This document shows, in pieces, positions 10,130-44,767 of a DNA stretch of 64,000 nucleotides; within the stretch, counting starts at the first letter, position 1; every line of letters starts with the position of its first letter. The notes beneath the pieces are model-generated. The model was given only the letters and a program-made list of their open reading frames with translations. It searched no databases and was not told the DNA's origin. The stretch comes from Polaribacter sp. NJDZ03 (lineage in GTDB: Bacteria; Bacteroidota; Bacteroidia; Flavobacteriales; Flavobacteriaceae), in the NCBI RefSeq assembly GCF_019263805.1, contig NZ_CP079195.1:3893001-3957000 (forward strand). The letters run 5' to 3'. Both the position numbers and the translations under genes were made by a program.

Positions 10130-10165
10130 AAAATAAAAGAACTGCTCTAATAAAAACGATAAAAA

Positions 10166-12379
10166 ATGAAGAAATTAACTAAAATAAAAACTTCAATGGA
10201 TATTCTTCAAAAGAATAAATGGCAACTGATTATAGTAATTGGGTTGATTATAAACTTTAACTTCATGAGTTGTAATTCTTCTAAAAGTAATATTTCACAA
10301 AATGATTCTACAAATGAAGATGGTATGGTTTTATTTGACTTTGAGAATGAAACTCAAACTCAATTAGTAAAACCTCAAGATGCAACTTTCGAAATTATTT
10401 CATCAGAAAAAAATAATTATTTACAAGTTAACAACGGAAATACATTAAGAGAAACGGGCGTAAAATTAATGAGCCCTAACGGAAAACCTTGGAATTTGTC
10501 CTCTTACTATCAAGTAAAAGCAGATGTTTCTAATGTGGGTGATGAAAAAATGCAAGTAGAACTTTTTGTTGGTAATGATCCTGATGGGTTGTTAAGATGG
10601 TATTGTTCAGATTATATCGATTTAAAACCAGGAGAAAGTAAAACAATCACTGTTAATTTAGCTTGGACTCCTTGGATTTTTAAACCACAAATAAAGATTA
10701 ATGGTTTACGTGGAGTTCCTGGACAGATTAAAGCAGATTTAACGAAAGTTACTGAGCTAACTTTCTGTTCTAGATACAATACAGAACCTAATAATTTTAC
10801 AATTGATAATGTTAGAGCTGTTGGTAAATATGAAGAAAAAAGCCCTGATGGATTTTTACCTTTCATAGATAAATATGGACAATATAAACATCAAGATTGG
10901 AAAAATAAAATTCATTCTGATAAAGAAATTAAAGAATTTGCTAAGGCAGAATTAGCTTATTTAGAAAACGGTAAAGGGCCAAAAGATAGAGCCACTTTTG
11001 GAGGTTGGTTAAAAGGACCAAAATTAAAAGCAACAGGTTTTTTTAGAACAGAAAAAGTAGCAGATAAATGGTGGATGGTGGACCCAGAAGGATATTTATT
11101 TTGGACAGCAGGTTTAAACTGTGTCGCTTCAAACTCGGTTTTTACAGGTGTTTCTCAACGAGAAAATTATTTTGAATATTTACCAAAAAAAGACGATTCT
11201 TCTGCTCAGTTTTATCAAGAAGTAGATTATGCAACCCATGGTTTTTATAAAGATAAGAGACCATATAAAACGTTTAACTTTTATCAGAATAATTTATATA
11301 AAAAATATGGTGATGATTGGTTAAAAACATTTCAAGATGTTGCTCATAAAAGAATAAAAGATTGGGGGATGAATACCGTTGGTTTTATGTCTGATATAGG
11401 AGTAACAAAACAAAAAAGAACAGCATATGTTGGTTCTATTTGGATAAAAGATACACCTAAAATAAAAGGTTCAGAAGGTTTTTGGGGAAAGTTTCATGAT
11501 GTGTTTGATCCTAATTTTAGAATAGCTGTTAGAAATTCTGTAGAATCTCAAAAAGGAGGAGCTAATGATCCTTGGTGTTTAGGTTTTTTTGTTGATAACG
11601 AATTGTCTTGGGGGCAGTTAGGTTCTTTGGCTGTTGGTACTTTAAAAAGTCCAGAAAATCAACCTGCAAAGATAGAATTCATCAATGATTTAAAAAAGAA
11701 ATACAAAATGGTTAATGCTTTAAACATCTCTTGGAAATCGTCTTATAAATCTTGGGAACATTTATTAACATCTACAGAAATACCTAATAGAGAATTCGCA
11801 AAAACAGATTTAGTTAATTTTTATAAGAGAATTGCAGAAACATATTTTAGAACTATTAATGAAGAGTTAAAATCGGTTGCTCCAAATCAAAACTATTTAG
11901 GTTGCCGATTTGCTTGGGCAAATAATGATGTTGTTTTAACAGCTGCGAGTCATTATTTAGATATTATGAGCTTTAATAAATACGAATATAGCATTGCAGA
12001 TTTTTCGTTACCAAAAGGAGTTGATAAACCAGTTATGATTGGTGAGTTTCAGTTTGGTGCTTTAGATAGAGGAAGTCTACATGTAGGAATTAAAGCTGCA
12101 AAAGACCAAACAGAAAGAGGAGAAATGTTTAAAAGTTATATACAAGGAGCATTAAGAAACCCAAATATCGTTGGTGCTCATTGGTTTCAATATATAGATG
12201 AACCAAATACTGGACGTTTTGATGGAGAAAACTATAATGTAGGTTTTGTTGATATTACAGACAATCCTCATGAAGATTTTATAGAAAAAGTAAAAGAAAC
12301 TACCTATTCTATGTATGAATATAGAAAGAATAACAATTTAGAAAACAAGAATTCTAATCAATCATTATCAAAAAAATAA
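10166..12379 (+). CDS. GH50 beta-agarase lipoprotein
   Basis: A 737-residue lipoprotein (cysteine 36 in NFMSCN) with an N-terminal beta-sandwich of CBM type (about 45-215) and a GH50 catalytic barrel (about 230-715). The expected GH-A pair is present: acid/base Glu479 in VDNELSWG and nucleophile Glu627 in IGEFQFG. GH50 enzymes are agarases that commonly release neoagarobiose, the substrate of GH117 encoded just upstream. A second GH50, clearly diverged, lies at 40635. The start could also be the internal Met at codon 11. Confidence 0.88.
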   Translation: MKKLTKIKTSMDILQKNKWQLIIVIGLIINFNFMSCNSSKSNISQNDSTNEDGMVLFDFENETQTQLVKPQDATFEIISSEKNNYLQVNNGNTLRETGVKLMSPNGKPWNLSSYYQVKADVSNVGDEKMQVELFVGNDPDGLLRWYCSDYIDLKPGESKTITVNLAWTPWIFKPQIKINGLRGVPGQIKADLTKVTELTFCSRYNTEPNNFTIDNVRAVGKYEEKSPDGFLPFIDKYGQYKHQDWKNKIHSDKEIKEFAKAELAYLENGKGPKDRATFGGWLKGPKLKATGFFRTEKVADKWWMVDPEGYLFWTAGLNCVASNSVFTGVSQRENYFEYLPKKDDSSAQFYQEVDYATHGFYKDKRPYKTFNFYQNNLYKKYGDDWLKTFQDVAHKRIKDWGMNTVGFMSDIGVTKQKRTAYVGSIWIKDTPKIKGSEGFWGKFHDVFDPNFRIAVRNSVESQKGGANDPWCLGFFVDNELSWGQLGSLAVGTLKSPENQPAKIEFINDLKKKYKMVNALNISWKSSYKSWEHLLTSTEIPNREFAKTDLVNFYKRIAETYFRTINEELKSVAPNQNYLGCRFAWANNDVVLTAASHYLDIMSFNKYEYSIADFSLPKGVDKPVMIGEFQFGALDRGSLHVGIKAAKDQTERGEMFKSYIQGALRNPNIVGAHWFQYIDEPNTGRFDGENYNVGFVDITDNPHEDFIEKVKETTYSMYEYRKNNNLENKNSNQSLSKK

Positions 12380-12384
12380 AAACC

Positions 12385-13665
12385 ATGAGATTAAAAAAAC
12401 GATATATAAAAACAAATTTAATTATTTTATTGATAACTACGATAGTTATAGTTGCTTGCGGAAGTAGCTCAACAGAGCCCGAAGAACCACAAGAAATAAA
12501 CGATACACCATCAGCAGTTGATGACACTTTAAGTGTTGATGAAAATAGTAGCTCTGGGACTTCAAATCAAGTAAATGTAGCTTCAAATGATCATTTAGGA
12601 AATGATGGTGGAGGTACTGATAATTATAGTATAAAAACTGATCCAACTAATGGTACTATAACTGAAGTAAGTGATGGTGTTTTTGAATATATCCCTAATG
12701 CTGATTATTTTGGAGATGACAGTTTTGCATATAATATAACAGATGTTGATGGTGATGTAGATTCTGCATCGGTTGCAATAACTGTAACAAAATTTGCACC
12801 AAGTGCTAGTGCTTTTAGTAATATTGATCCAAGTCTTCCTTCATTTGTTTCTATTGAAGATACAACTCCAACAGATAAAAAATGGGTAAAGTTTGAATCG
12901 ATGTCTGATGAATTTGATTCTTGGGATAGCAGTAAATGGTTTAAATCTACTTGGAATTATCCTGCTCCCGTTTACATGTCTCAGTCTATACAAAACTCAG
13001 GAGTTACAGACGGTAAATTGTGGTTAAAAGCAACTTTAAATGAAAGTAACCCTGATGGGAGATGGTTTCAAACAGCAAGAATTCATTCTATAGCTGAAAC
13101 AAAATATCCTATGTACACAGAAGCTAGAATAAAATCTTCTCACATTTCTGCCTACAATACATATTGGTTAAATAATGGTGATATTAATAACAGAGATGAA
13201 ATTGATATTATCGAGAACAACTCAAAACCTTCTTGCAATGGTTGTCAACCTGAATTTCCAACAAGAATGAATTCGCAATATTTTCATGCTGATGCAAGTA
13301 AATCTCCAGTGGAAATTAGAGATGAAGACAATTTTATAAACACCAATTTATCAAATAATAATCCTTTAAAAGGAGTAAAATGGAATGAAGCATATCAAAC
13401 TTTCGGAGTTTGGTGGAAAGATGCTAAACACATTCAATTTTACTTAAATGGAGAACCTGCTGGAAGTGTTGTAGTAGGTGAAGATAGAGGGGGACAAACA
13501 TATGCAGGTCGTGAATTTACGCGTGATTTAGAAATAATATTTGATTTATGGACGAATGAAGGAAACTATCTAGGTGGTCTTCCTCCTAAATCAGATTTAG
13601 GTGATGATACAATTAATACCATGAGAATTGATTGGGTAAGAACATGGAAATTAGAAGATAAATAA
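12385..13665 (+). CDS. GH16 lipoprotein, beta-porphyranase or agarase type
   Basis: A 426-residue lipoprotein (cysteine 25 in VIVACGS) with a cadherin-like Ig domain (about 45-135, ending DVDGDVDSASVAITV) and a GH16 catalytic domain (about 160-425). The catalytic motif is EIDIIE at Glu272-Asp274-Glu277. The surrounding sequence (NGDINNRDEIDIIENNS) resembles, from memory, Zobellia beta-porphyranases more than AgaA/AgaB-type agarases, but I cannot run the comparison. It starts 5 bp after GH50, so the two are tightly coupled. It is likely an endo-acting enzyme anchored at the outer surface. Confidence 0.82.
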   Translation: MRLKKRYIKTNLIILLITTIVIVACGSSSTEPEEPQEINDTPSAVDDTLSVDENSSSGTSNQVNVASNDHLGNDGGGTDNYSIKTDPTNGTITEVSDGVFEYIPNADYFGDDSFAYNITDVDGDVDSASVAITVTKFAPSASAFSNIDPSLPSFVSIEDTTPTDKKWVKFESMSDEFDSWDSSKWFKSTWNYPAPVYMSQSIQNSGVTDGKLWLKATLNESNPDGRWFQTARIHSIAETKYPMYTEARIKSSHISAYNTYWLNNGDINNRDEIDIIENNSKPSCNGCQPEFPTRMNSQYFHADASKSPVEIRDEDNFINTNLSNNNPLKGVKWNEAYQTFGVWWKDAKHIQFYLNGEPAGSVVVGEDRGGQTYAGREFTRDLEIIFDLWTNEGNYLGGLPPKSDLGDDTINTMRIDWVRTWKLEDK

Positions 13666-13685
13666 GAATATAAAAATAGAGATAA

Positions 13686-16166
13686 ATGAAGAATATTAGT
13701 CAAGAAGAAAGAGACTACTTAGCTGAACAAGGCAAAGAGTCTAACGAAAAAGTTGTTTTTGATTTAAGTGGAAACAAATGGCAATTTGAAGGTATAAGGC
13801 CAGACGAAGGTGTTAAAGTTGGTTTTCATGAGTTAAACTTTGATATTACAGGAGATTCATTTAATTGGTCTTTTGCGAAAGTTCCTGGAGATGTGTATAC
13901 AGATTTATGGAGAGCAGGTAGAATAGAGGATCCGCATTTTGGAAGAAATAGTGTAAAAGCAAAATGGGTTCCAGAAAATGAATGGTGGTATAAACGTCAG
14001 TTCGATGTACCTAAAAACATGTTTGAGAAACACATTCAATTGGTTTTTGATGGTGTAGATTTTGGATGTGATGTTTGGTTGAATGGAAAATTTTTAGGTT
14101 CTCATGAAGGAATGTTTTCAAAATTCAAGTTTGATGTATCAGAAGATATTCGTTTCGAAAACTTGCGTTTCGGAACCAATGTTTTAATGGTTCGTTTACA
14201 TCCAGCACCAAGAAGATATAGTCAAGTTGCAGGACGTAAACCTGCGTGGCATGGAGATTATTGGGTAAGTTTACCTCCAACAGGAATTTGGAAACCAGTT
14301 TATTTAGAAGCAACAGGTAAGGTTACTATTGAAGATACGTATGTAAAACCGGTTATATTAACTGAAGATTCTGCTCGTTTAGATGTAGAAATTGAGTTAA
14401 AAAATCATGAAGATGCTGAAAGAGAAATAGCTATTAACATTGAAGTTGAAGGTGAAAATTTCGAATCTAAAACGTATCAAGTTCAGCAAAAAGTTAAAGT
14501 TTCTAAAGGAACTAATAACTATGAAATCAGTTTAGATATTGATGGTGCAAAACTTTGGTGGCCTTGGGATTTAGGAGATCAAAACTTATATAATGCTAAA
14601 GTTACTGTTATTGAAGGTGAAGATACTTTATTAGACACAACAGATACTTCTTTTGGAATTCGTGAAGTAAAAATGGTACACAATCCTGGGTTTACTTTAG
14701 AACAGGTAGAAAATCCTTGGACAGTTATGATTAATGACAGACGTCATTTTATGCGTTCAGGAACTTGGGGAGGACCACCAGATATTTTTATGGGTCGTGC
14801 ACATCCAAGTAAATATGTAGAGTTAATTCGTTTAGCAAAAGAATGTAACTTTAATAACTTAAGAATATTTGGTTGGCATCCAGAAGAAATTCCTTTATTC
14901 TACAAATTATGTAACGAAGCAGGTATTACAGTTTGGCAAGATGTTTTACCATTAGCAAGTTTGTCTTTACCAAAAGATGAAGAATTTAAACAAGCTGTTT
15001 TTGCAGAAGCTATTTCATCTGTAAAAGCGCAACGTAATCATCCTTGTTTAGTGTTATTAGAAGGTTCAGAAGAATTGTTTATGACAGCTTCAGACCCAGA
15101 ACACAATTTAGAATTTGTAAATGCACTTGGTGAGGCTATTAAACCTTATACACCTTTACATTTTATACCTTCTTCACCTTTAAGTGATGAGGTTGGTTTA
15201 AATTTAGGTTTTAAACCAAACGAAAGTTTCCATGCGAATGATTTATTCTATGGTGAAGGAGAGTTTGTAATGGAAGAATATTTCCCTAGTTTAGATTTTG
15301 CAGTAATTCCTGAATTAGCAATTTCTTCTTGTCCGAATGTAGAAAGTATTAAGAAGTTTATTCCTGCGGATGAAGTATGGCCTCCAGGACCAAGTTGGGG
15401 ACACCATTGGACAGATTTTGATGCACTAAGAACTTTAAATTTTGAAGTTTTAGGAGATCAAAGTAGAGACGGTTTAGAAAAATTTGTTGAAGCTACTCAA
15501 ATTTCACAAGGGGTTATTTTTCAATATGCATTAGAGCATTTTAGAACGAGAAAACCTAAAACAAGTGCTGTTTGTATTTGTCACTATATCACTTTTGCTC
15601 CAGATATGAAATGGGGAATTGTAGATTATTATCAAGAGAAAAAATTATCTTTTGACTATGTGAGAAAAGCATATCAACCTGTTTTAGTTACGATGAAACA
15701 CAATAATAGACGTTGGTTACCAGGAGAAGAATTTAAAGGAGAATTATGGGTTGTAAATGATTATTATAAATCATTTAAAGACTGTAAAGTTACTATCAAA
15801 TACTTGGATAATAATAAATCTGTATTCAAATTAGAAACGTTTGATATTTCTGAAATTGGAGGAGATAGTTCAGGGAAATTTGTTGATGTTTCCTGTAAAG
15901 TTCCAGGAGTAATAGGAGATAAATTCTATACAGAAATTTCTCTTGTTGATGCAGATGGAAATTCTATTTCTGAAAATGACTATATGTTATTAGTAGCAGA
16001 TAAAGAAAAAGATAGAAAAGAATTAAGAGCTATTGGTTTAGAAGCTTTTGAAACGAAGGAAAAATTTGGTTGGGCTAGTTACTTTAGATATTACCCTAGT
16101 TTAGGTGGTGAAGATGGAGTTCCAGAAGCGGATCAAAAAATGCCAATTGCAAGAGGTTTTGAGTAA
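13686..16166 (+). CDS. Divergent GH2 family glycosidase, no signal peptide
   Basis: An 826-residue GH2-fold protein with a jelly-roll sugar-binding domain (about 20-210), Ig-like domain (about 210-330), TIM barrel (about 330-640) and C-terminal beta domain. It lacks a secretion signal and is therefore probably cytoplasmic. The acid/base position reads GSEE (Glu462-Glu463), where family members have a GxNE-type motif. The nucleophile region reads PELA (Glu543) instead of the usual SEFG. Both glutamates are retained but the Asn before the acid/base is replaced. Context suggests an exo-beta-galactosidase on imported oligosaccharides, but the motif changes leave activity uncertain. Confidence 0.8.
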   Translation: MKNISQEERDYLAEQGKESNEKVVFDLSGNKWQFEGIRPDEGVKVGFHELNFDITGDSFNWSFAKVPGDVYTDLWRAGRIEDPHFGRNSVKAKWVPENEWWYKRQFDVPKNMFEKHIQLVFDGVDFGCDVWLNGKFLGSHEGMFSKFKFDVSEDIRFENLRFGTNVLMVRLHPAPRRYSQVAGRKPAWHGDYWVSLPPTGIWKPVYLEATGKVTIEDTYVKPVILTEDSARLDVEIELKNHEDAEREIAINIEVEGENFESKTYQVQQKVKVSKGTNNYEISLDIDGAKLWWPWDLGDQNLYNAKVTVIEGEDTLLDTTDTSFGIREVKMVHNPGFTLEQVENPWTVMINDRRHFMRSGTWGGPPDIFMGRAHPSKYVELIRLAKECNFNNLRIFGWHPEEIPLFYKLCNEAGITVWQDVLPLASLSLPKDEEFKQAVFAEAISSVKAQRNHPCLVLLEGSEELFMTASDPEHNLEFVNALGEAIKPYTPLHFIPSSPLSDEVGLNLGFKPNESFHANDLFYGEGEFVMEEYFPSLDFAVIPELAISSCPNVESIKKFIPADEVWPPGPSWGHHWTDFDALRTLNFEVLGDQSRDGLEKFVEATQISQGVIFQYALEHFRTRKPKTSAVCICHYITFAPDMKWGIVDYYQEKKLSFDYVRKAYQPVLVTMKHNNRRWLPGEEFKGELWVVNDYYKSFKDCKVTIKYLDNNKSVFKLETFDISEIGGDSSGKFVDVSCKVPGVIGDKFYTEISLVDADGNSISENDYMLLVADKEKDRKELRAIGLEAFETKEKFGWASYFRYYPSLGGEDGVPEADQKMPIARGFE

Positions 16167-32952: not shown

Positions 32953-34095
32953 TTAGGCTAAAAATTCTTGAGATATTTTATCTGTATGTTCACCTAAACT
33001 TGGAGATCCTAGGGTTGATGTAAAATACTCACCATCAATCTTTATTGGACACCTTGTTGTCTTATACTCATATCCATCACCCATTCTTACATTCTGAATC
33101 ATGTCTAAAGATTTAAATCCATCTTGATTAAAAAGTGTTTCCCAATCCATAACATTAGCACACCAAATGTCTGCTGGCTCTAAAATTGAAAGCCAATGTT
33201 CTGTAGTATTGGTGTTTAATTTGTTGGCTAAAATCGTTTTTATTTCATCACGTTTTGTAAACCAACTTGCTGGTTCTGGATACTCGGCTAATTCATTGCA
33301 ACCAATTAATTCTCCAATAAAAGGAATAGAGCCCATTGCTAAAGCGAAATAGCCGTTTTGTGTTTTATAAACACCATAAGGAGCGCCTAAATAAGCATGT
33401 GCACTATTACTCTTTGGACGAACAGTTGGTTCTCCTCCATCATGATAAAACGTGGTAATAGATTCAAATTGAAAATCTATAATAGATTCTAACATGCTTA
33501 CAGAAATTTTTGTACCGATACCTGTTTTGCCTTTTTTAATTAAAGCAGCCAAAATACCTTGTACTAAATGAGAGCCAGATAAAATATCTGCAATAGCAAT
33601 TCCTACAGGTGTAGGGCCACTTCCATCATTCCCATTTAACCAGGTTAAACCAGATAATGATTGCACAAGTAAATCTTGTCCGGGTTTAGATTTCCAAGGA
33701 CCTTCATCTCCATAACCTGAAATATTTCCATAAACAATTTTTGGATTTATTTTTTTAATAGTTTCATAATCAAAACCCAAACGTTCTACAACACCAGGTC
33801 TAAAATTATGAACTAAAACATCTGCTTTTGCAATCAATTTTAAAACACGTTGTTTATCTACTTCGTTTTTTAAATCTGCTTCAAAACTTTCTTTATTTCT
33901 ATTAACAGCTATAAATAAAGGAGATTCATTATTCATCTTTAGATTAGAAACATGTAATTGACGACTAATGTCTCCAGTTTTAGGGCGCTCTACTTTAATA
34001 ACTCTTGCTCCCAAATCTGCTAAACGTAAAGTAGCAGAAGGTGCAGATAAAAACTGACTTAAATCTATAACTAATATATCTTCTAATGGTTTCAT
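32953..34095 (-). CDS. Family III CoA-transferase (CaiB/BaiF), copy 1
   Basis: A 380-residue CoA-transferase that moves CoA between carboxylic acids. Family signatures are [14 protein letters not shown] near residue 30, [12 protein letters not shown] near 97, and catalytic Asp141 in [13 protein letters not shown]. It is the last gene of the minus-strand operon, 5 bp after a paralogous CoA-transferase. The acid substrate cannot be read from sequence. A tandem pair may form a heteromer or serve two acids. Confidence 0.88.
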
Positions 34096-34100
34096 CCTAT

Positions 34101-35246
34101 TTATAGATTAAATTCTTTAATAATTGCTTCTGTATTTTGTCCAACTCTTGGTGCTGCTTTTTTATTAAAAAGCCTTTCATCATTTAATCTTATTGGGCAG
34201 CGTGTTGTGTGTATTTCTTCGCCAGAAATTAATGGTAATTTTTGATCCATTTTTAAAACATCATATGCTTCATGGTTCAATAATTTTTTATAATCAAAAA
34301 CATCAGAACACCAAATTCCTTTAGGTTCTAAAATATCTAACCAATCTTGTGTGTTTTTTTCGATTAAAAAAGCACGAAGAACATCCATTATTTCATCTCG
34401 TTTTTCATACCAAGAATTGGGGTCAGAATAAGATGCTAATTGTGAAATGTTAAGAATGTTAGCTAAATTTGTTAAAGAGCCCATTGCTAAAGATAAATAA
34501 CCATCTTTTGTTTGATAAACGCCATAAGGAGCGCCTAAATATGCATGTGCATTTCCTTGTTTAGCTCTATTTGGTTTTTGATTATTATCACTTAAATAGC
34601 CGGTAATAACTTCAAATTGAAGGTCTAGTGTAGATTCTAATAAACTCACTTCAACCAAAGCCCCTTTATTCGTTTTGATACGTTTTAAAAGACTTGATAA
34701 AATTCCATGAGCCAAATGTGTTCCCGTAATTAAATCGGAAACAGCAGCACCAACAGGAGTTGGATTATCATCTTTATCTCCTGTTAACTTTGCAAAACCA
34801 GACATCGCCTGAATTAATAAATCTTGACCTGGTTTTTTAACCCATTCACCTTCTGTACCATAACCAGTAACAGATGCATACACTAATTTTGAGTTTATAT
34901 TCTGAACCGTTTTATAATCTAAGCCAATTTTCTCCATAACTCCTGGACGGAAATTATGTGTCATAACATCAGCTTGTTCTATTAATTTTTTAACACGATC
35001 TAAATCATCTGCATCTTTTAAATTGGCAGTATAAGATTCTTTATTTCTATTTACGGTATGAAATACCAAACTACTGCCATCTAAAAATAAGTTTTTTAAA
35101 GCAATACCTCTTCCTGCTTCACCAGAACCAGGTCTTTCAATTTTGATAACTCTTGCACCTAAATCAGCTAATCTTAATCCTGCAGATGGTCCAGCCATAA
35201 ATTGAGAGAATTCTAATACCAAAATGCCTTCTAAAGGTAATTTCAT
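34101..35246 (-). CDS. Family III CoA-transferase (CaiB/BaiF), copy 2
   Basis: A 381-residue paralogue of the downstream CoA-transferase. It has [20 protein letters not shown] near residue 28, [12 protein letters not shown] and catalytic Asp142 in [12 protein letters not shown]. It begins 2 bp after the solute-binding-like gene. Both copies keep the catalytic aspartate, so neither is an obvious degenerate subunit. CoA-transferases are unusual in a polysaccharide locus; their neighbours (aldehyde dehydrogenase, enoyl-CoA hydratase) suggest oxidation of an aldehyde to an acid that is then processed as a CoA thioester. Confidence 0.88.
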
Positions 35247-35248
35247 AG

Positions 35249-36388
35249 TTATTCTTTTAATGATTTTAAATACAACTCATTTAAATCTTTTAATAGCTGT
35301 TGTTCATCTCCTCCATTCATCATATACTCTCTAATTGGCGCACCAGCTCTATCTTGAAAATACATATGACCATGATATCTTGGGCGTAAAAAAGCTCTAT
35401 CTAACGCTGGTAAAGTATCTTTAAAGAAATTATCTGTTAAATCATTTGCACGCTTATCTAACCAAGCTTGTCTATGTCCTGGTTGACCTCCGTTATCAAA
35501 AAACACACCTTTTTGAGTTGCTTCTGAACCTACATATTCTACAAATTTACCAGCAATTTCTTGATGCTCAGTATTTGCAGAAATAGCTAATCCAGTACCT
35601 CCTAAAGTTGTTATTAATTTTTGATTATCAATTGCAACCATATCATGAAACTTTAAATGCTTTCTAGCATAGCCTTCACGAGAATAATTGGTGTAACCAT
35701 AAGCGAAAGGACTATAAATATAATCGTCCGTTAAAGTCATTGCTTCATATACTTTAATAGGATTCCAATCATAATTTTCCTTTTTGATATTTTTACCAAG
35801 AGCTCTTAATATTTGAAGTGCTTTTATTCCAGTTTTTTCTGAAATAACTTCTTTATCAGAAGTACAAACATCTTCACCAAGTGTAGAGCAAATCATATAG
35901 AAACTCATTAAAGTATCTTGTGGGATTCCTGGAATTGCAACCATTCCTGTTTTTGACAATTCTATTAAATCATCAAAAGTTTCTGGGAATTTTAAATTTA
36001 ATTTCTCGAACAAATCTGGTCTGCTCGCTGCAACAGGTGTAGCAGCATCAATAGCTAAAGCCCATTGTTTTCCTTTTATAGAATAACTTTCATGAGATTT
36101 ACCAACAGTGTTTACTGCTAGGTCTTTTAAGTATTCATCTGATAAAAATTTATTTAATGGTAAAATTACTTCTGTTCTAGCAGCAAAGCCAGTCCAAGGA
36201 TGGTCAATAATTAAAAAATCGTAGCGTTTTGCTAATTCATTAATTGGTTCATCTGCAAATGCTTGCAATGATCTTTTCTCCCAAACGATTTCAACATCTG
36301 GGTTTAATTCTGTAAAACGTTGGGCAGCGGCTACAATTGATGTAAATCCTCTACTGTGATTCCAAGTTATTCCTTTTAATTGTTTCAT
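35249..36388 (-). CDS. Solute-binding-protein-like, no signal peptide, no permease
   Basis: A 379-residue protein with the fold pattern of family 1 extracellular solute-binding proteins (FTELNPDVEIVWEKRS, FPETFDDLIEL, GGTGLAISANTEHQEIAGKF). It starts directly at MKQLKGITWNHSRGF with no hydrophobic leader and no lipobox. No ABC permease or ATPase gene is in the window. Embedded in an operon of cytoplasmic CoA-linked enzymes, it may work inside the cell as a ligand-binding or enzymatic protein. I recall similar signal-less homologues next to CoA-transferases in alphaproteobacteria, but cannot check this. A missed upstream start is unlikely because the codons before Met 36388 give no leader. Confidence 0.75.
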   Translation of the reverse strand: MKQLKGITWNHSRGFTSIVAAAQRFTELNPDVEIVWEKRSLQAFADEPINELAKRYDFLIIDHPWTGFAARTEVILPLNKFLSDEYLKDLAVNTVGKSHESYSIKGKQWALAIDAATPVAASRPDLFEKLNLKFPETFDDLIELSKTGMVAIPGIPQDTLMSFYMICSTLGEDVCTSDKEVISEKTGIKALQILRALGKNIKKENYDWNPIKVYEAMTLTDDYIYSPFAYGYTNYSREGYARKHLKFHDMVAIDNQKLITTLGGTGLAISANTEHQEIAGKFVEYVGSEATQKGVFFDNGGQPGHRQAWLDKRANDLTDNFFKDTLPALDRAFLRPRYHGHMYFQDRAGAPIREYMMNGGDEQQLLKDLNELYLKSLKE

Positions 36389-36477
36389 GTACTAATATTA
36401 TTTGTTTTTATGGGTTACATGTGGCTTCCATTGAGTCATTTCCTATTGATTGACGTTAGTTATGGAAGGTTTATAAT

Positions 36478-37923
36478 TTATTCGTAACTCATGTAAATTG
36501 TTCGTTTCTGTAAATACTGTTCGATACCGTAAACTCCATCTTCACCACCAATACCAGCTTTTTTATGACCAGAATGATGCCCTTGAATGTAGCCTACAAT
36601 TTGTTTGTTAATAAAAATGGTTCCTATTTCAAACTCTTGAATAGATCGCATTATTAATTTATGATTTTCTGTATATAAATAAGCAGATAAACTATCATCT
36701 CGTTTATTTAATAATTCTTTAGCGTGTTCAAAACCTTTAATTTTAACAATTGGTAAAACCGGTCCAAACATTTCTTCTTGCACGGTTGCATCACCTGGTT
36801 TTACATTTGTTAAAATGGTTGGTTCATACCAATTTCCTTTTTCAAATTCTTTACCTTCTGGTCTTTTACCACCTAAAACTAATTCTGCTCCTTGTGCTAT
36901 GTTTTTTTGAACAACTTCATCGATTCTTTTTAAGGCAGCAGCGCTTAAACTTGGTCCCATGTTTACATCTGTCATTGGGTTACCTACTGTAATTTTTTGA
37001 ACTCTTTTTATTAATTTTTCTGTAAACTCGTCTGCAATTTTTTCATCAACAAAAACCATTTCATTACAAATACATACTTGTCCGCAATTTGCATAACGAG
37101 ATATAGCAGCAGCTTCAACAGCTTTGTCAATATCAGCATCTTCTAAAACTATAAAAGGCGCTTTTCCACCTAATTCTAATACTAATCCTGCCACGTTTTG
37201 CGAAGCACCTTTGTAAATAGCTTGTCCTGCTCTTGTGCTTCCAGTCATAGAAATTAACCTCGTAATTGGATTTTCTACTAATGCAGCACCAACAGTATGT
37301 CCATGACCAACAACCATACTAATAACTCCTTTTGGTAAGCCAACTTCATCAATTATTTTACAAAATTCAGATGCAGTTATTGGTGTTAATTCTGATGGTT
37401 TTATAACCATTGTATTTCCTGTAATTAAAGCAGGACCAATTTTACGTCCAATTAAAGCCAAAGGATAATTAAAAGCCATTAAACCTACCGTAACTCCATA
37501 AGGAACTTTGTGTATAGTAAGTTGTTCGTTAGGTTGGTCTGAAGGAAAAATAGCACCTTGTATACGTCTTCCTGCTTCAGCAGAATACGTCATATATCTT
37601 ATAGTATCATCAACTTCGTAACGAGCTTCTACAAGAGTTTTTCCTTGTTCCATTACCAGTAACTTGGCAAAATGCTCTTTTCTTTCTTCTAACTTCTCTG
37701 CAATTTTATACAAATAATTTGCACGCTCTTGAGTTGGTAACATTTGCCAAGCAAATTGCGCTTTATCAGCAGCTTCTAATGCTTGTTGTACTTCGTCTAA
37801 ACTACTCGAGTAAATTTCAGCAAATACTTCTCCATTTGCTGGGTTTTCTACATCAATCTTTTCTCCTGAACTTTTTTCAATCCACTCTCCGTTAATGTAA
37901 CATCTGTATACTGTTGTTTCCAT
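36478..37923 (-). CDS. NAD(P)-dependent aldehyde dehydrogenase
   Basis: A 481-residue aldehyde dehydrogenase with Asn152 (FNYPLA) for the oxyanion hole, general base Glu250 (LELGGK) and catalytic Cys284 (CGQVC). It is closest in pattern to lactaldehyde/succinate-semialdehyde dehydrogenases. Known 3,6-anhydro-L-galactose dehydrogenases belong to the same broad group, and no other aldehyde dehydrogenase is in the window. It may therefore supply the first oxidation of anhydrogalactose to the acid used by the cycloisomerase at 3848. Alternatively it serves the CoA-linked genes of its own operon. Confidence 0.88.
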
Positions 37924-37934
37924 AAATACTATTT

Positions 37935-38705
37935 TTAGTTAAAGATTGCTTTTCTTTTTTCTACGAAGGCTTTTAATCCTTCTTGTGCATCTGGAGTATC
38001 ATACAATCCATCTGCTAATTGTGTCTCTAATTTTAATCCTTCTTCAAGAGAGAGCTCTATTCCTTTATGAACAGATTCTTTAATGGCTATCATTGCCAAT
38101 AATGGTCCTTTTGCTAATTTTTCTAAATAAGATTTAGATTGCTCTTTAAAATTTTCTTTAGCATATAATTGATTTACCAATCCAATATCAAAAGCTTGTT
38201 TTGCTATGATTGGTTCTCCTGAAATTAAAATTTCTAAAGCTTTACTTTGGTTTACAATTCTGATTAATCTTTGAGTTCCACCATTTCCTGGCATCAATCC
38301 TAAATTGATTTCTGGTAACCCTATTAAATATTGACCATCACTTGCCAAACGAATATCGCAAGCTAATGCCAGTTCTAAACCACCACCTAAAGTATGACCA
38401 TCTAATAAAGCAACTACTATTTTAGGGCTTTTAGAAATTTTGTAGGCTACCAAGTTGGCTTGTATAACCATCTTTTTGTTTTCAGCAACAGAATTTTGTT
38501 GAAAAACCTTTACATCTGCTCCTGCACAAAAGAACTTTTCTAATTCGCTTTTTATGGCTATTATTTTTACATTGTTATTACGATTTGCTTCATCAATAAT
38601 TTCTGATAAAGAGGTCATAAAATCAAGGTCGTAACTGTTGGCTTTTGGTTTGTTAATAACGATATAGCCAACTTTGTTTTCTATTTCTAGTCTAATTTGT
38701 TTCAT
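37935..38705 (-). CDS. Enoyl-CoA hydratase/isomerase (crotonase) family
   Basis: A 256-residue crotonase-fold enzyme acting on a CoA thioester. Oxyanion motifs are FFCAGADV and [10 protein letters not shown]. The two glutamates of hydratases are present (Glu111 in [10 protein letters not shown], Glu132 in [11 protein letters not shown]). I start it at ATG 38705, where [20 protein letters not shown] matches family N-termini; a longer frame would overlap the preceding FG-GAP gene. It is 5 bp from the upstream gene and 11 bp from the aldehyde dehydrogenase. Both glutamates suggest hydratase rather than simple isomerase activity. Confidence 0.87.
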
Positions 38706-38710
38706 CTTAT

Positions 38711-40627
38711 TTAAAATTGATAGATTTTGTTTGCTTTTAAATTGGTAAGAGTTGATTTTTCTCCACTTCTCCAAACCACTTCTACTTTCTCAATTACTTT
38801 CTCTTTTCCTAGACCAAAATGAACAGTATTTAAAAAGCTTTGAGCATGAGAAGCACTACTAGAACCAATAAGTTTGAATTGTTTTCCAATTTTTGTTGTT
38901 ATGTAAACTTTAGCGCCATAAGCATCTACATTAGATTTAGAATTACCAACTCTAAATAGGGCATAATTGTTTACAGAAACTGTTTCGTTCTCGTATAAAT
39001 GCCATTGTCCATTATCATCATCTCCACTTAAAATATCTATTTTACCATCTAAATTATAATCGAAAGTTGCCCCCATATCTCCATGAGATTTAGATGGAAT
39101 ATTGTTTGCTCCATGTGTTAAAATAGATTCAAACTCTAAGTTTCCTTTATTTTTAAAAATCACGTCTTCACTTCTTTGGATTAAACCACCAAAACGATAT
39201 AAGAAGAAATCATTAAAGCCATCGTTGTCAAAATCTCCTGTAGTTATTCCCCAATTGTTTTCCAAGCTTTCTTTAGGCAAATGTTTAGACCCATCTATAA
39301 AATGAGTTCCTTCATTAATCAACAAAACATCTGGAACACCCAAGTCTTGAGGAGTCCAATCTGGTACTACTTTTGTAACACCAACAACAGATGCTCTCAC
39401 ATCCCATGCTAAATTGGTTTTTAATAACCATTCTAAACGCCATTTTCCTTCACCCAAATAGCCTAAGTACCATCCGCTTTTGTCTAAATTTTCGGGAAAT
39501 CCATTCGCTTCATTTTGCGTTACTTTTTGAATGTCAAAAGGCATTTTATGTTCGGTTTTAGAACTTCCAATAAACAACGGAATACTTGGTTTTTCAGGGC
39601 CTCTAGGAAAACGATAAAAATCGGAAAGTTGTATAGCTGCATCCGCATAAAAAGTTATACCATCATGACTTTTGTTTCCTTCATCTCTTAAATCTAATCG
39701 TTTCAGTTTTTCATCAAAAGAAATAGAATTATTTGCAATTTGATAATAACTTTTACCTCTTGCTAAATAATAATCTAAATCACCATCATTATCTATGTCT
39801 GCCTGTGCAGCAGTACTCATCTGGTCTATATTCTGTAACTCTTTAGGTAACCATTCTTTAGATAAGTTGGTAAATGAAAAATCGTTATTTCCTTTCCAAA
39901 ATTCTGCGGCAGCATAAGGAGAAAATGTTAGTAAATCTAGTATTCCATCATTGTTAAAATCTGTAATTAGTAAACGTTCTGCATTAATTTGTTCAAAAGC
40001 TTCACTCTTTTTATAAGTAAATGTTCCGTTTCCATTATTTTCGAATAATAGATTTCTTGGAATTTCTTCATTGACCATTTGTTCTGCATTAATTTGAAGA
40101 AAATCTAAATCACCATCATTATCTAAATCTATCCATCTTACAGAACGACCACGAGCTCCCATTTCTGATAACCCAGTTTCTTCTGTAGCATCCACAAATT
40201 TCCCATTATCATTACGTAACAAGCGTTGAGGTTGTGGTGTTGACCCGTTTCCGCCTCCTAAAGAAATTAGCAAATCTAAATCACCATCTTTATCATAATC
40301 ACCTGCAGCCATTCCATGTAAATCTGCTTTTGGGAAAAGCCCTTTTTGTTCTTTAAAAGTATTGTTTTCTTGTGCCCAAAATAATTGAATAGGTGTGTTG
40401 TCATGATTACCTAAAAGTAAATCATATTTTCCATCATTGTTGATGTCTGCGATAGTTGGTCCGCCATATTTCCAGTTTTTTTCTGTATTTAAATGGACTT
40501 CTTTAGTTACGTCTATAAATTTTATAGGATTGTTTTTCTCTTTACCTTTATTACAACTGATAAGAGAAATTAATAGAAACCCAAGGGCTAATAATTGTTT
40601 CGATTTTGTTTTAAGTAAACGTTTCAT
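38711..40627 (-). CDS. FG-GAP/VCBS and ASPIC/UnbV lipoprotein
   Basis: A 638-residue lipoprotein (cysteine 25 in SLISCNK) made of FG-GAP repeats (ADINNDGKYDLLLG, DYDKDGDLDLLIS, DLDNDGDLDFLQ), ending in an ASPIC/UnbV segment (SSSASHAQSFLNTVHFGLG). It is a shorter paralogue of the protein at 30025, without the Ig-like C-terminus. It sits between GH50 and the crotonase with 7 bp and 5 bp gaps, so it is firmly part of this operon. Likely surface-located; function unknown. Confidence 0.85.
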   Translation of the reverse strand: MKRLLKTKSKQLLALGFLLISLISCNKGKEKNNPIKFIDVTKEVHLNTEKNWKYGGPTIADINNDGKYDLLLGNHDNTPIQLFWAQENNTFKEQKGLFPKADLHGMAAGDYDKDGDLDLLISLGGGNGSTPQPQRLLRNDNGKFVDATEETGLSEMGARGRSVRWIDLDNDGDLDFLQINAEQMVNEEIPRNLLFENNGNGTFTYKKSEAFEQINAERLLITDFNNDGILDLLTFSPYAAAEFWKGNNDFSFTNLSKEWLPKELQNIDQMSTAAQADIDNDGDLDYYLARGKSYYQIANNSISFDEKLKRLDLRDEGNKSHDGITFYADAAIQLSDFYRFPRGPEKPSIPLFIGSSKTEHKMPFDIQKVTQNEANGFPENLDKSGWYLGYLGEGKWRLEWLLKTNLAWDVRASVVGVTKVVPDWTPQDLGVPDVLLINEGTHFIDGSKHLPKESLENNWGITTGDFDNDGFNDFFLYRFGGLIQRSEDVIFKNKGNLEFESILTHGANNIPSKSHGDMGATFDYNLDGKIDILSGDDDNGQWHLYENETVSVNNYALFRVGNSKSNVDAYGAKVYITTKIGKQFKLIGSSSASHAQSFLNTVHFGLGKEKVIEKVEVVWRSGEKSTLTNLKANKIYQF

Positions 40628-40634
40628 TTTTTAA

Positions 40635-42968
40635 TTACTTTTTTATTTTTTTACCAAACCTTCTTGTATATAAATTTGAATTTACTTCTTTTGCTTTTTT
40701 AATCATTGGTGGATAAGGAATATCTGTATTAGAGACAAAACCTACATTATAATTTTCACCATCGTGGGCTCTACCAGTAAGTGGAGAATCTAAATATTGA
40801 AACCAATGTACTCCTACAAAATATGGGTTGTCTATTGCAGAGTTTGCATAATCTGCCCACATATTAGCTCTATCTTTTTGATCTGCTGCATGAACTAAAC
40901 CAGAATGAAATAACCCAGAATCTGGTGCTCCCATGTGAAATTCTCCAATAATGGTTGGCATATCTATTTCTTCTAAAAATTTCCAGTACTTAGTACCAAT
41001 ACCTTCTTTGTAATGATTGTAACTAAAAACATCAACATATTTAGCTGCAGATTCACGAACTTCTTTTGTGATTCCCCAAACAGCAAAACGACATCCCATG
41101 TACATATAGTTTGGCATTTTATCTTCTAAAATATCATGAACAGTTTTAAAATATTTGGTAGCAAAAGCTGTGAGCATTACAGAAAAATCTGCCACCATAC
41201 CTTCAGGAAATTCATTTTGTTTTTTATAATCAACACCTTTTTCAAGTTCTTTCCAACTAGCTATATTTGTTTTCCAAGCTTTATTTAAGTTTCCAATAGT
41301 TTTGTGCTTAGTCTTTAAAATAGTCATAAACTGTTGCTTTAAATAGCTATCTTTTCCTTTAGATAAACCATCTAAAACCAATCCATAATGTGCTTTTGTA
41401 GAACTTTCATTCCCCCAACTTCTTTCGTTATCAACAAAAACACCCATACACCAAGGATTGTTTTCGACTTCTTTAGAAACAACATCAATTGATTTTATTA
41501 CTCTTCTTTCAAATTCTGGATCGAAAGGATCTGGCATTGGTCCCCAATAATCCGAACCAGAATATACCTTTTGAAAATCTCCAATAATCCATCCGTTAGC
41601 AAAATAAGGTAAGTTATTTCTGTGATAAAATGCTGGGTCAATCCAGTTTCCAAAGGACGTGAATCCCCAATTACGCATTCTGTTTTCTGTAACTTCTAAC
41701 CATTTATCAAAAAAAGAATTTTTGCTTGTTTCTCCATATCTACGTTCTAAGTTCGCTCTATAAAAACTATATGTTTGTCCATGTTCTATAGGCCCAAAAT
41801 GAGATTCTCTTCTATAACTATAATGATTAGCTAGAGCATCATCAATTTTTGGTAATTCAAGAAACATGTCATTTCTAAGTTTATTAACTACATGAGCTGT
41901 TTTCATGGTTTCTGTAGGTATTTCTATAATACCTTTAGAGTCTTCAGGAGTTACATCTTCCGGGTCTCTATGATATAATTTTTCATCTGTATAATCGATA
42001 CCTGTATACGTTGTAGTGTTTGCCATACGTACATTTGCTAAACCAATTGAAAAATATAAGTAACCTTCTGGATCTATTAAAGCCCATTTTCCATCAACTT
42101 TTTCTTTTCTAAAATAACCCGTTGCATCTAATTTAGGACCATCTTTCCATCCACCATATTGGCTTCTATCTGACATTAACGTATATTCTGCTAAAGATTT
42201 TAATTCTACATCAGCAATTTTCTTTAGTTCTTCATCAGAATGTACTTTTATAGGGAAATCTCTTTTTGCATTTTGCCCAAATTTATCTACAATTCCTTTT
42301 AAAAAATTTGGATCTCTTTCTGGGCTTTCTACAATTCTAATATTATCAACTAAAATAGTTTTGTCTTTTAAACCTTCTAATCTAAAAAAGTCTATTCCTG
42401 CTATTTCAGAAAAATCCATATTATATAGAAGTCCACTAATTTTCATATGAGTTGCTTCGGTTTTCCAAGCTTTAGGAGTATCTCTTAAACCACTATTTAT
42501 GTCAGTTTTATTTGAGGTGAGTTCAAAGAAATATGATTTGAATTCACCTGTATCAATGTTTGTAATTCTTCTTACTCTTTCTCCATTTCCGTTTTCGGCA
42601 TAAACTGTTAAAAAAGTAGTTTCGTCCCCTAAACTTTTTGCATCAAAAACTAAACTATATTTTTTGCTTTTATTTAATTTGAAATTATTTTTCGGTGTTA
42701 ATTTAACTCCTGTAATTTTTTCATCTTTTTTAAAGGAAATTTCTAATGCATGATTTCTATTATTTTTAACAATTTTGTGACTTCCTTTTATGTCAATGAA
42801 ATTGTTATTAATGTCTTCTTTTTCGAAATCTAAAAACAAGATATCTGATTTTGAACTCCAAACTTCATTTTGTGTAGTTTCTTTTTTACATGAAAAAAAT
42901 ACCACAGAAATAAATGTTAACATTAACAATTTTCTGACAGTTTTAAAAAGATTGTATTTTCCCTTCAT
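40635..42968 (-). CDS. Second GH50-type agarase lipoprotein
   Basis: A 777-residue lipoprotein (cysteine 27 in VFFSCKK) with an N-terminal beta-sandwich (about 40-220) and a GH50-like catalytic barrel (about 235-765). Catalytic residues correspond to Glu515 (VDNERSWG) and Glu676 (IGEFHMG). It shares architecture with the GH50 at 10166, including the paired KxGYFRKEKV and WxxxDPEGYLxxxxGL regions, but is well diverged, so a different oligosaccharide preference is plausible. It is first in the seven-gene minus-strand operon. Only a weak ACTTGAC site lies upstream. Confidence 0.85.
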   Translation of the reverse strand: MKGKYNLFKTVRKLLMLTFISVVFFSCKKETTQNEVWSSKSDILFLDFEKEDINNNFIDIKGSHKIVKNNRNHALEISFKKDEKITGVKLTPKNNFKLNKSKKYSLVFDAKSLGDETTFLTVYAENGNGERVRRITNIDTGEFKSYFFELTSNKTDINSGLRDTPKAWKTEATHMKISGLLYNMDFSEIAGIDFFRLEGLKDKTILVDNIRIVESPERDPNFLKGIVDKFGQNAKRDFPIKVHSDEELKKIADVELKSLAEYTLMSDRSQYGGWKDGPKLDATGYFRKEKVDGKWALIDPEGYLYFSIGLANVRMANTTTYTGIDYTDEKLYHRDPEDVTPEDSKGIIEIPTETMKTAHVVNKLRNDMFLELPKIDDALANHYSYRRESHFGPIEHGQTYSFYRANLERRYGETSKNSFFDKWLEVTENRMRNWGFTSFGNWIDPAFYHRNNLPYFANGWIIGDFQKVYSGSDYWGPMPDPFDPEFERRVIKSIDVVSKEVENNPWCMGVFVDNERSWGNESSTKAHYGLVLDGLSKGKDSYLKQQFMTILKTKHKTIGNLNKAWKTNIASWKELEKGVDYKKQNEFPEGMVADFSVMLTAFATKYFKTVHDILEDKMPNYMYMGCRFAVWGITKEVRESAAKYVDVFSYNHYKEGIGTKYWKFLEEIDMPTIIGEFHMGAPDSGLFHSGLVHAADQKDRANMWADYANSAIDNPYFVGVHWFQYLDSPLTGRAHDGENYNVGFVSNTDIPYPPMIKKAKEVNSNLYTRRFGKKIKK

Positions 42969-43278
42969 ATTTGCTTTGGTTTAATATAATTATAGAATTT
43001 AGTGTTGTACAGATACAACTTGACAGATAGTGTTAATCTTTTGTATTACAGTGTGTAATAGATTGTTATTCATGTTTAAAACTATTCTCTCTACAAGTAA
43101 AGAAATTTATATTAATAAAGGAAGTGTTTTAGGTGTTTGTACAGTTTAATTCTAGTGAAAAGATGAGTTTTTTAATTGATATAATACTTAGAATCGGCTA
43201 ATTTTCATATTATTTATAAAAAAAAATAAATTTTAAAAACTTGGTGTTTAATAATGTTAGTTATTTTTTTTCGGATGA
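42969..43278. other. AT-rich intergenic region upstream of GH50
   Basis: Roughly 300 bp with no recognisable gene. It contains a single ACTTGAC at 43018-43024, about 50 bp upstream of the GH50 start, with only poor partners at 11-bp spacing. Confidence 0.4.
43018..43024. promoter_or_regulatory. Single ACTTGAC half-site before GH50 operon
   Basis: One exact half-site matches the motif seen before other genes of the locus. A clear second copy 11 bp away is missing, so this is weak support for shared control. Confidence 0.25.
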
Positions 43279-43286
43279 TATCTTTG
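43279..43286 (+). promoter_or_regulatory. Candidate -7 box TATCTTTG
   Basis: TATCTTTG matches the Bacteroidetes TAnnTTTG element and points into the structured non-coding stretch that begins just downstream. The -33 element is weak. Confidence 0.35.
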
Positions 43287-43690
43287 TAAGTATTCAAGAC
43301 CCATTGAAGTACATTTTTATTGTTTTAGACCTCGTTCAGCACATTTTTCTGCATTTCGCGAAAAGCTTCATTTCGTAAAAAAAGCTTCTCTAAAAAAGTC
43401 TTGGACACAATTCATAATTCTCGCTTTCCATTTCGTTACCCATTCTGCTACCGCTGAATGGTGCACTTCATTCCTGAGCAAAAATTATGAATGCCTCCGC
43501 TACATAGGAATATTATTTTATCATTTGGAGCCACTTCCTATGTTTTTGTACTTCACATAGATATCTCGATTAAAGTCCAGACCTCACTATTTCTTCCTTT
43601 TTTGACAGCAAAATACCAAGATTTTGAAGTTGAACAGACTGCATAAACCGTTTTGCTGCGCCTCACTTTTTATAAGTCTTTCTCAATTCA
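43287..43690. other. Structured non-coding region with inverted repeats
   Basis: This stretch is visibly richer in G and C than its surroundings and holds no long reading frame. A perfect 10-bp inverted repeat (43410-43419 with 43483-43492, ATTCATAATT) encloses a 6-bp hairpin (CCATTC 43440-43445 with GAATGG 43456-43461, 10-nt loop). A 9-bp inverted repeat follows (ACATAGGAA 43502-43510 with TTCCTATGT 43535-43543). Near 43352-43389 there is an imperfect direct repeat of CATTTCG plus AAAAGCTTC. The nested stems suggest a folded RNA, or a transfer or replication origin of a mobile element. I do not recognise a known family. Confidence 0.5.
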
Positions 43691-43695
43691 AAATA

Positions 43696-43770
43696 ATGAA
43701 AATGTATCAGCAACAAAAAAAGGAAACAGCGAAGGCACTATGGGAAGTAAATCAAAATGAAAACTTATGA
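43696..43770 (+). CDS. Tiny ORF upstream of ssb (24 aa)
   Basis: ATG 43696 to TGA 43770 encodes MKMYQQQKKETAKALWEVNQ and four more residues. Its stop overlaps the start of the next frame (ATGA), the arrangement of translationally coupled genes. No function is recognised and it may be chance. Confidence 0.25.
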   Translation: MKMYQQQKKETAKALWEVNQNENL

Positions 43771-43901
43771 AATCATACAAAAACATCAAAAAGGAAGCGG
43801 CACCAAAAAAAACAAAAAAGGAAAACGCTCTAGATATAATAAGTAAATCACTTCAAAAAAAAATAATAGCAAACTGTCTGAATAGTTCAGATAGGGTTTA
43901 A
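43767..43901 (+). CDS. Small lysine-rich ORF upstream of ssb (44 aa)
   Basis: ATG 43767 to TAA 43901 encodes a strongly basic 44-residue peptide beginning MKSYKNIKKEAAPKKTKKEN. It overlaps the preceding tiny frame by 4 bp and ends 21 bp before ssb, so all three could share one transcript. The lysine richness would fit nucleic-acid binding, but the region is A-rich and the composition alone could produce it. Confidence 0.3.
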   Translation: MKSYKNIKKEAAPKKTKKENALDIISKSLQKKIIANCLNSSDRV

Positions 43902-43922
43902 TTAATCTTTAAATATATTATT

Positions 43923-44426
43923 ATGAGCACACTAAAAAACAAAGTACAGTTAATCGGGAATGTAGGAAATGTACCCGAAGTTAAGACCCTAGAGGATGGG
44001 AAAAAAGTTGTTAATTTTTCATTGGCAACGAATGAGTTTTATAAAAACTCAGATGGAGAAAAAGTACAAAATACCCAATGGCATGCTATTGTAGCATGGG
44101 GGAAAATTGCTGAAATAGTTGCGGAATATGTTGGCAAAGGAAAAGAAGTTGCAATTGAAGGTAAATTAACGTCCCGTTCTTACGAAACCAAAGAAGGTGA
44201 AAAACGATATGTTACGGAAGTGGTAGCAGATGAAATTCTATTGCTTGGTATCAAAGGAGAAAAAGACAATTTGAAATCAATTCACAACCAACCTCTCATT
44301 GTGGTTTGGATTCCCGCCCTTGTGATTGCTCACGTAAAAATACAATTTGAAATCAATTCACAACATAGTGAGAGTAAGGAGGAACGTAAAGAAGCTTGTG
44401 ATTGCTCACGTAAAAATACAATTTGA
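43923..44426 (+). CDS. ssb: Single-stranded DNA-binding protein with CRISPR-derived tail
   Basis: Residues 1-109 form a standard OB-fold SSB (LIGNVGNVPEV, VVNFSLATNEFY, TQWHAIVAWGK, VAIEGKLTSRSYETKEGEKRY, VADEILLLG). Short flavobacterial SSBs usually stop a few residues after this point. Here the frame continues 58 residues, read through a CRISPR-like repeat/spacer array, and the tail has no acidic SSB tip for partner binding. It lies beside a structured non-coding region and tRNA-Met, so it is probably an SSB of a mobile element, not the chromosomal housekeeping copy. The DNA-binding core looks intact. Confidence 0.8.
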   Translation: MSTLKNKVQLIGNVGNVPEVKTLEDGKKVVNFSLATNEFYKNSDGEKVQNTQWHAIVAWGKIAEIVAEYVGKGKEVAIEGKLTSRSYETKEGEKRYVTEVVADEILLLGIKGEKDNLKSIHNQPLIVVWIPALVIAHVKIQFEINSQHSESKEERKEACDCSRKNTI

Positions 44427-44438
44427 AATCAATTCACA
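44260..44438. CRISPR. Short orphan CRISPR-like array, 46-nt repeat, 30-nt spacers
   Basis: A full repeat spans 44319-44364 (46 nt). A second copy spans 44395-44438 and matches it up to its last two bases. The end of a third copy lies at 44266-44288 inside ssb (23 matching bases, and a further AAAAA before one mismatch). The two intervals, 44289-44318 and 44365-44394, are each exactly 30 nt and unrelated in sequence. Read on the minus strand the repeat begins GTTGTGAATTGATTTC and ends AATCACAAG. A 46-48-nt repeat with 30-nt spacers is the geometry of type II-C arrays in Bacteroidetes. No cas gene or leader was recognised, and both ends are truncated. Confidence 0.7.
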
Positions 44439-44625
44439 GTAAGTCATGAAGTTTTAAAAAAAAAATAAATTTAAAAAGAGTATGTATATAGAAATAAAGA
44501 GGTTATTTTTTTTTAAATAAGAATATTGACACAAAGATGTCTTGTTTTGAATGCTTATTATAGCAATTAATAGCTTTTAAGGTAATTTGTATTGTTCTAC
44601 TATGATGAGTAAAAAAAATCAATTT

Positions 44626-44647
44626 GTTGTACCTATGTTGTACCTAA
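44626..44647. repeat. Tandem 11-bp direct repeat GTTGTACCTAT
   Basis: GTTGTACCTAT at 44626-44636 is followed directly by GTTGTACCTAA at 44637-44647, just beyond the 3' end of tRNA-Met. It could be a protein-binding site of a lost element or chance duplication. Confidence 0.4.
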
Positions 44648-44652
44648 ACAAA

Positions 44653-44680
44653 AAAAGTCAAGATATAAATCTTGACTTTT
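44653..44680. terminator. Bidirectional terminator between ssb and tRNA-Met
   Basis: A perfect 12-bp stem (44653-44664 with 44669-44680) with a 4-nt loop, A4 on one side and T4 on the other. It serves the tRNA on the minus strand and whatever reads rightward from ssb. Confidence 0.85.
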
Positions 44681-44693
44681 CGTACTATACTTG

Positions 44694-44767
44694 TAGCGAG
44701 AACGGGATTTGAACCCGTGACCTCAGGGTTATGAATCCTGCGCTCTAACCAACTGAGCTACCTCGCC
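44694..44767 (-). tRNA. tRNA-Met (anticodon CAT)
   Basis: The minus strand folds into a complete 74-nt tRNA: acceptor GGCGAGG with TCTCGCT, D arm GCTC/GAGC, anticodon loop TTCATAA, and T arm ACGGG/CCCGT around TTCAAAT. The G1-U72 pair argues against initiator tRNA, which has a mismatch there. A CAT anticodon could also be read as isoleucine after lysidine modification; elongator Met is favoured. CCA is not encoded. Confidence 0.9.

Follow-up and report, generated by a model that had tools for sequence, protein, structure and literature searches.

What is a CRISPR array of two spacers doing beside a tRNA gene with no cas gene near it? The question is raised by a 64,000-nt stretch of Polaribacter sp. 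NJDZ03 DNA (hereafter the window; positions 3893001–3957000 of a genome that consists of one 4.08-Mb contig), in which an initial annotation had seen an orphan type II-C-like mini-array that might be a relic or might be carried by a mobile element and use the host Cas9. We confirmed that the two-spacer array is real (window 44260–44440, adjoining the tRNA gene), and our comparisons indicate, as the most likely reading, a relic carried by a mobile element. Specifically, we give a probability of roughly 0.86 to the reading that a large integrative element in tRNA-Met carried a type II-C locus at its right (att) end, that a deletion removed the cas genes, and that the leader-distal stump is what remains.

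A two-spacer array between ssb and tRNA-Met

The features on which the argument rests are as follows (window coordinates, strand where assigned).

33926–44264: stretch 99.65% identical to Cellulophaga sp. 20_2_10 scaffold 22 (locus L093), ending at the junction
43923–44426, plus: ssb gene, 3′ end lost; the frame runs on through the array, 167 aa
44259–44262: junction of ssb DNA and repeat, about 2 nt of shared sequence (read from the letters)
44260–44288, minus: truncated repeat fused to ssb; last 29 nt of the 46-nt unit (plus orientation), one mismatch
44289–44318, minus: 30-nt spacer; self-match only in 166 genus genomes (≤3 mismatches), target not found
44319–44364, minus: complete, exact 46-nt repeat (repeat spacing and shuffle control)
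44365–44394, minus: 30-nt spacer; self-match only in 166 genus genomes (≤3 mismatches), target not found
44395–44440, minus: terminal (leader-distal) repeat, 44/46; two changed bases, the same in Cellulophaga sp. 20_2_10
44441–44692: flank from array to tRNA-Met, right end of the element; near-identical in Cellulophaga sp. 20_2_10, 83.7% over 227 nt in relative G456
44625–44646, plus: 22-nt direct repeat; partner at 3821052–3821073, ~280 bp before the integrase open reading frame (ORF)
44693–44767, minus: tRNA-Met (CAT), attachment site; perfect second copy of its 3′ 43 nt at 3820905

The 46-nt repeats and two unique 30-nt spacers reported earlier were recovered exactly, as a 29-nt repeat stub, a spacer, a complete repeat, a second spacer and a 44/46 repeat, with direct-repeat spacings of 76 and 76 and a total of only ~2.6 repeat units; copies of the repeat in 100 shuffled controls averaged 0. 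The minus strand is the crRNA sense for this repeat family, and on it the order is flank, terminal repeat (44440–44395), spacer (44394–44365), repeat (44364–44319), spacer (44318–44289) and stub (44288–44260). The array had been described as cut off at both ends, which holds for the left copy but not for the right, where the repeat reaches 44440 and differs only in its last two bases, and is thus near-complete rather than cut. Against Rfam, the array gave a CRISPR-DR50 match below threshold (29.4 bits versus 47, E = 0.078).

Genome-wide, the window array was the sole site of the full 46-nt repeat (≤3 mismatches), and the remaining 18 blastn matches (E ≤ 10) were pieces of 14–27 nt with E values of 0.19 or worse. 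A dispersed, transposon-like repeat is thereby ruled out, and the 76-nt period recurs in the long cas-adjacent arrays of relatives. The array query matched 34 of 146 genus genomes and 30 of 397 family genomes (the window genome counted in each), and the long arrays in the fetched loci mostly lay beside cas2, cas1 and cas9 (order cas9–cas1–cas2–array), several with an anti-repeat beyond cas9. The proposed type II-C ancestry is borne out by these loci, whose arrays carry the identical 46-nt repeat.

An integrative element inserted at tRNA-Met

Two copies of the 43-nt tRNA-Met core, at 3820905 and 3937694, bound an island of ~116.8 kb (its window part being 1–44736), and the array lies between these two att copies. 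Just inside the left copy is a tyrosine-recombinase ORF (3821350–3822312) with PF00589 and PF13102 matches (the Pfam scan covered 8 of the element's listed ORFs), and the pair of 22-nt direct repeats are likely integrase arm sites. Together, the core copies, integrase and arm sites place the array at the right end of the element, and with near-identical Cellulophaga DNA they substantiate the suggestion that a mobile element carries it. Beyond the left att copy, a further ~60–70 bp again resemble the right-end flank, which by sequence resemblance suggests tandem elements.

The island is also rich in large ORFs that look, from the ORF list, like polysaccharide-use genes. At 3866550–3872496 it holds type I restriction–modification genes in pieces (an HsdM N-terminal part, an N6_Mtase part and Methylase_S); the HsdM pieces are separated by a transposase-like ORF, and a copy of IS1595 lies close by.

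A cas-bearing counterpart in Cellulophaga

A near-identical array end was found in another genus. Window 33926–44264 is 99.65% identical over 10.3 kb to scaffold 22 of Cellulophaga sp. 20_2_10, on which ssb ends normally and is followed by one IS1595 end; contig C1 of the same genome begins with the other IS1595 end and continues with a cas9 remnant (the 3′ part, interrupted by an in-frame stop), cas1 with a frameshift, cas2, an array of three repeats, the flank and tRNA-Met. From the IS1595 ends at the facing ends of the two contigs (96% over 101 bp and 100% over 88 bp), we infer that scaffold 22 and C1 are neighbours in the Cellulophaga genome. The last Cellulophaga repeat carries the same two changed bases as the window terminal repeat, and across terminal repeat and flank 298 of 301 aligned columns are identical. 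The Cellulophaga tRNA-Met differs from that of Polaribacter inside the 43-nt core, which leaves some latitude in where the exchange took place.

In the window, the match to scaffold 22 stops at the point where ssb meets the repeat stub, and a deletion probably fused the two in the window lineage. A conserved ssb–array association was considered and rejected, as the repeat was in none of 109 ssb loci (L064–L172; fetched DNA, some flanks short). In Algibacter miyuki (L098), another II-C system adjoins the same type of ssb gene, with a cas2 85% and a partial cas1 70% identical to those of the window strain's 36-nt-repeat system.

Intact and reduced loci in relatives

Genomes of the same genus (G numbers) showed the same tRNA-Met site in several states. 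A complete II-C locus of 17.5 kb in G397 is flanked by a full tRNA-Met on one side and by a 43-nt copy of the tRNA 3′ part on the other, in the order integrase, ORF without a Pfam match, AAA_25 ATPase, DUF6371/zinc-ribbon protein, array, cas2, cas1, cas9, anti-repeat and tRNA fragment, with 84 repeat matches (anti-repeat included). G429 has the same gene set adjoining the tRNA fragment; a full tRNA-Met was not found within its fetched stretches. Because integrase genes lie between array and tRNA in both, these loci are cousins of the window element, not its direct precursor. At tRNA-Met, G469 and G523 retain the G397-type genes from integrase to DUF6371 but only one repeat, and neither genome gave a Cas9 match. 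In G456, three complete repeats and two spacers are accompanied by the flank and the tRNA core; the ~29 kb on either side of the array held no match to the G397 cas genes, and a different Cas9 lies at 3.51 Mb.

Among other repeat-bearing fetched loci, no cas match was found in several, including G409 (L234), G421 (L267, cut by the contig end), G456 (L233), G479 (L282) and G463 (L283), and the 15 genus genomes with only one or two array matches, when searched again, included lone or degenerate repeats. In G400, G405, G412, G416 and G418, the repeat was not found in the 19–19.5 kb fetched at tRNA-Met, and the G409 array is located elsewhere than this site.

Three side observations concern individual loci. 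In G469 and G523, the single terminal repeat directly follows the DUF6371 gene (L276 15400–15434 and L277 14895–14929, respectively); single repeat units are described elsewhere as RNA anti-CRISPRs. L234 (G409) holds a long array of the 46-nt family (9533–15572, 78 repeat matches) with no cas1, cas2 or cas9 match in the 19.5 kb fetched. In G523, an array-free copy of the right-end flank and tRNA-Met core (L315 ~13083–13318; G523 contig C1 1495083–1495317) lies ~42 kb from tRNA-Met in the opposite orientation.

Host Cas9 and the missing anti-repeat

Searches with tblastn and two query sets detected no cas1, cas2 or cas9 in the 155 kb around the array (3810000–3965000), in agreement with the earlier reading that none is nearby. 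The 21-nt repeat core (≤3 mismatches) had no extra copy in the same 155 kb, where a cognate tracrRNA anti-repeat would show, so none was detected there, nor was a comparable anti-repeat found genome-wide. A genome search for cas9, as had been recommended, found one Cas9 (1525 aa, at 0.68 Mb), accompanied by cas1, cas2 and an array of 36-nt repeats with a period of 66; a second HNH match at 2.3 Mb falls in a 201-aa frame. The window repeat differs from this 36-nt repeat, and the predicted pairing of the putative host anti-repeat with the 46-nt repeat was −9.5 kcal/mol, versus −18.7 kcal/mol with the repeat of its own 36-nt system and −34.7 kcal/mol for the cognate anti-repeat and repeat of G397. 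Given these energies, use of the host Cas9, which the initial annotation had entertained, is judged unlikely, and with such poor modelled pairing activity of the array in this host would also be unlikely.

Spacer targets and spacer differences

The window spacers matched nothing but themselves in 166 genus genomes (≤3 mismatches), and a search against phage and plasmid records, another suggestion of the annotation, returned only weak matches (E = 0.6–0.7: two records of one Leptospira phage and one Persicobacter plasmid). Exact 20-mers from either end of each spacer were absent from IMG/VR. We also compared 752 spacers (from the window, G456, Cellulophaga and 17 other arrays; G411 and G562 contributed none, their repeat fitting neither extraction pattern) with the fetched loci, obtaining one non-array match (24/30, E = 0.042) and no target among tRNA-Met elements. 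As we judge the searched collections to be poor in marine flavobacterial phages, the lack of a match is weak evidence.

Three arrays lie at att ends, with two spacers each:

window 44260–44440: Polaribacter sp. NJDZ03
L233 9546–9743: G456
L311 3315–3512: Cellulophaga sp. 20_2_10

All six of their spacers are different, and both Cellulophaga spacers are thus other than those of the window despite near-identical flanks, a difference that, judged from the sequences, would be unexpected from simple deletion. Our guess is that a longer array contracted by recombination between repeats.

Origin of the mini-array

A deletion in the window lineage, reaching from ssb into the array, would be the simplest account. 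A type II-C locus would have been carried at the att end of an element inserted at tRNA-Met, and a deletion from the 3′ end of ssb into a repeat would then have taken out the cas genes together with the leader and the array portion next to it; we infer both the event and this order from the junction and from the cas-bearing Cellulophaga array end. By analogy with Flavobacterium II-C arrays, the leader-distal side would be the tRNA side and the lost side would have held the leader. Some minus-strand RNA may still arise from repeat-internal promoters, and, lacking a matching Cas9 and tracrRNA, such RNA should be inactive in this host.

Alternatively, a II-C locus may already have resided in the chromosome beside tRNA-Met and have been broken up by insertion of the element. 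II-C loci without a match to either integrase query do lie between tRNA-Met and tRNA-Gly in G401 and G411, where such an origin is possible, and the G401 array starts ~100 bp from tRNA-Met; for the window it is improbable, as the array is inside the two att copies and its end and flank are ~99% common to another genus, whereas the adjoining tRNA and START_2 gene are not (the Cellulophaga START_2 matches the G397 protein at 58%). Hardly worth entertaining is ectopic spacer insertion or a chance repeat: the array has few units and abuts a gene, but its repeat is identical to that of true cas-bearing arrays and 0 copies are expected by chance. Insertion by the host Cas1–Cas2 is ruled out outright, the host units being 36 nt long with another sequence.

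The array might, rather, still work, as a two-spacer guide cassette at the att end, with which the Cas9 of II-C hosts could be directed in trans at competing elements or phages. The conserved module of array, flank and core in G456 and Cellulophaga, with spacers that all differ, would fit such a role. For the window it is very unlikely, as one repeat is truncated and runs into ssb, the host Cas9 serves a different type of repeat, with weak pairing predicted, and no spacer target was found, whether in tRNA-Met elements or in the other sequences searched. We also consider improbable a broader form, in which the att-proximal array would be a portable guide cassette that tRNA-Met elements of marine flavobacteria maintain with two spacers; Cas1–Cas2 of II-C hosts would refresh it, the Cas9 of these hosts would use it in trans, and the window would hold a recently broken copy. 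If true, repeat-only elements would exploit and compete with elements that carry the whole system. The relic status proposed for the mini-array is thus supported, and we retain the leader-distal stump as our reading.

Comparison with known systems and significance

The closest known system, and a clear precedent, is CampyICE1 of Campylobacter jejuni/coli, which is reported to be an integrative and conjugative element with a degenerate type II-C system at tRNA-Met (PMC8743540). It shares with the window an integrative element with its integrase at tRNA-Met, degenerate II-C components and short arrays, and differs, according to the same account, in keeping cas9 without cas1 or cas2, whereas the window copy has no cas gene, and in having spacers that mostly match plasmids, whereas no targets were found for ours. 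G397-type relatives, unlike CampyICE1 as described there, keep cas1, cas2 and cas9 and long arrays.

Within the Bacteroidetes, the II-C systems of Flavobacterium psychrophilum (Fp2Cas9; PMC10309648) and Flavobacterium columnare (PMC8092290) resemble the window family in 46-bp repeats (F. psychrophilum CN46), an array beside cas2, repeat-encoded promoters from which transcription runs toward the leader, and degenerate terminal repeats that mark the leader-distal end; compared with these accounts, the window lacks cas genes, leader and tracrRNA. Virus-borne CRISPR mini-arrays (PMC11656645) likewise have one or two spacers and no cas genes on a mobile element; their repeats are identical to those of the host's system and their spacers directed against related viruses, whereas the window repeat is foreign to its host and its spacers have no known targets. 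We found no report of CRISPR-bearing tRNA-Met elements in Polaribacter or Cellulophaga in the literature searched, in which subscription journals were thinly covered.

The result for the window itself is modest, and its main interest is a well-documented decay series: comparison of a decaying cas-bearing version, a stump and complete II-C loci across two genera explains one kind of 'orphan' array. In addition, as elements with complete and with reduced II-C loci share one tRNA gene as their site, competition between elements for it becomes testable.
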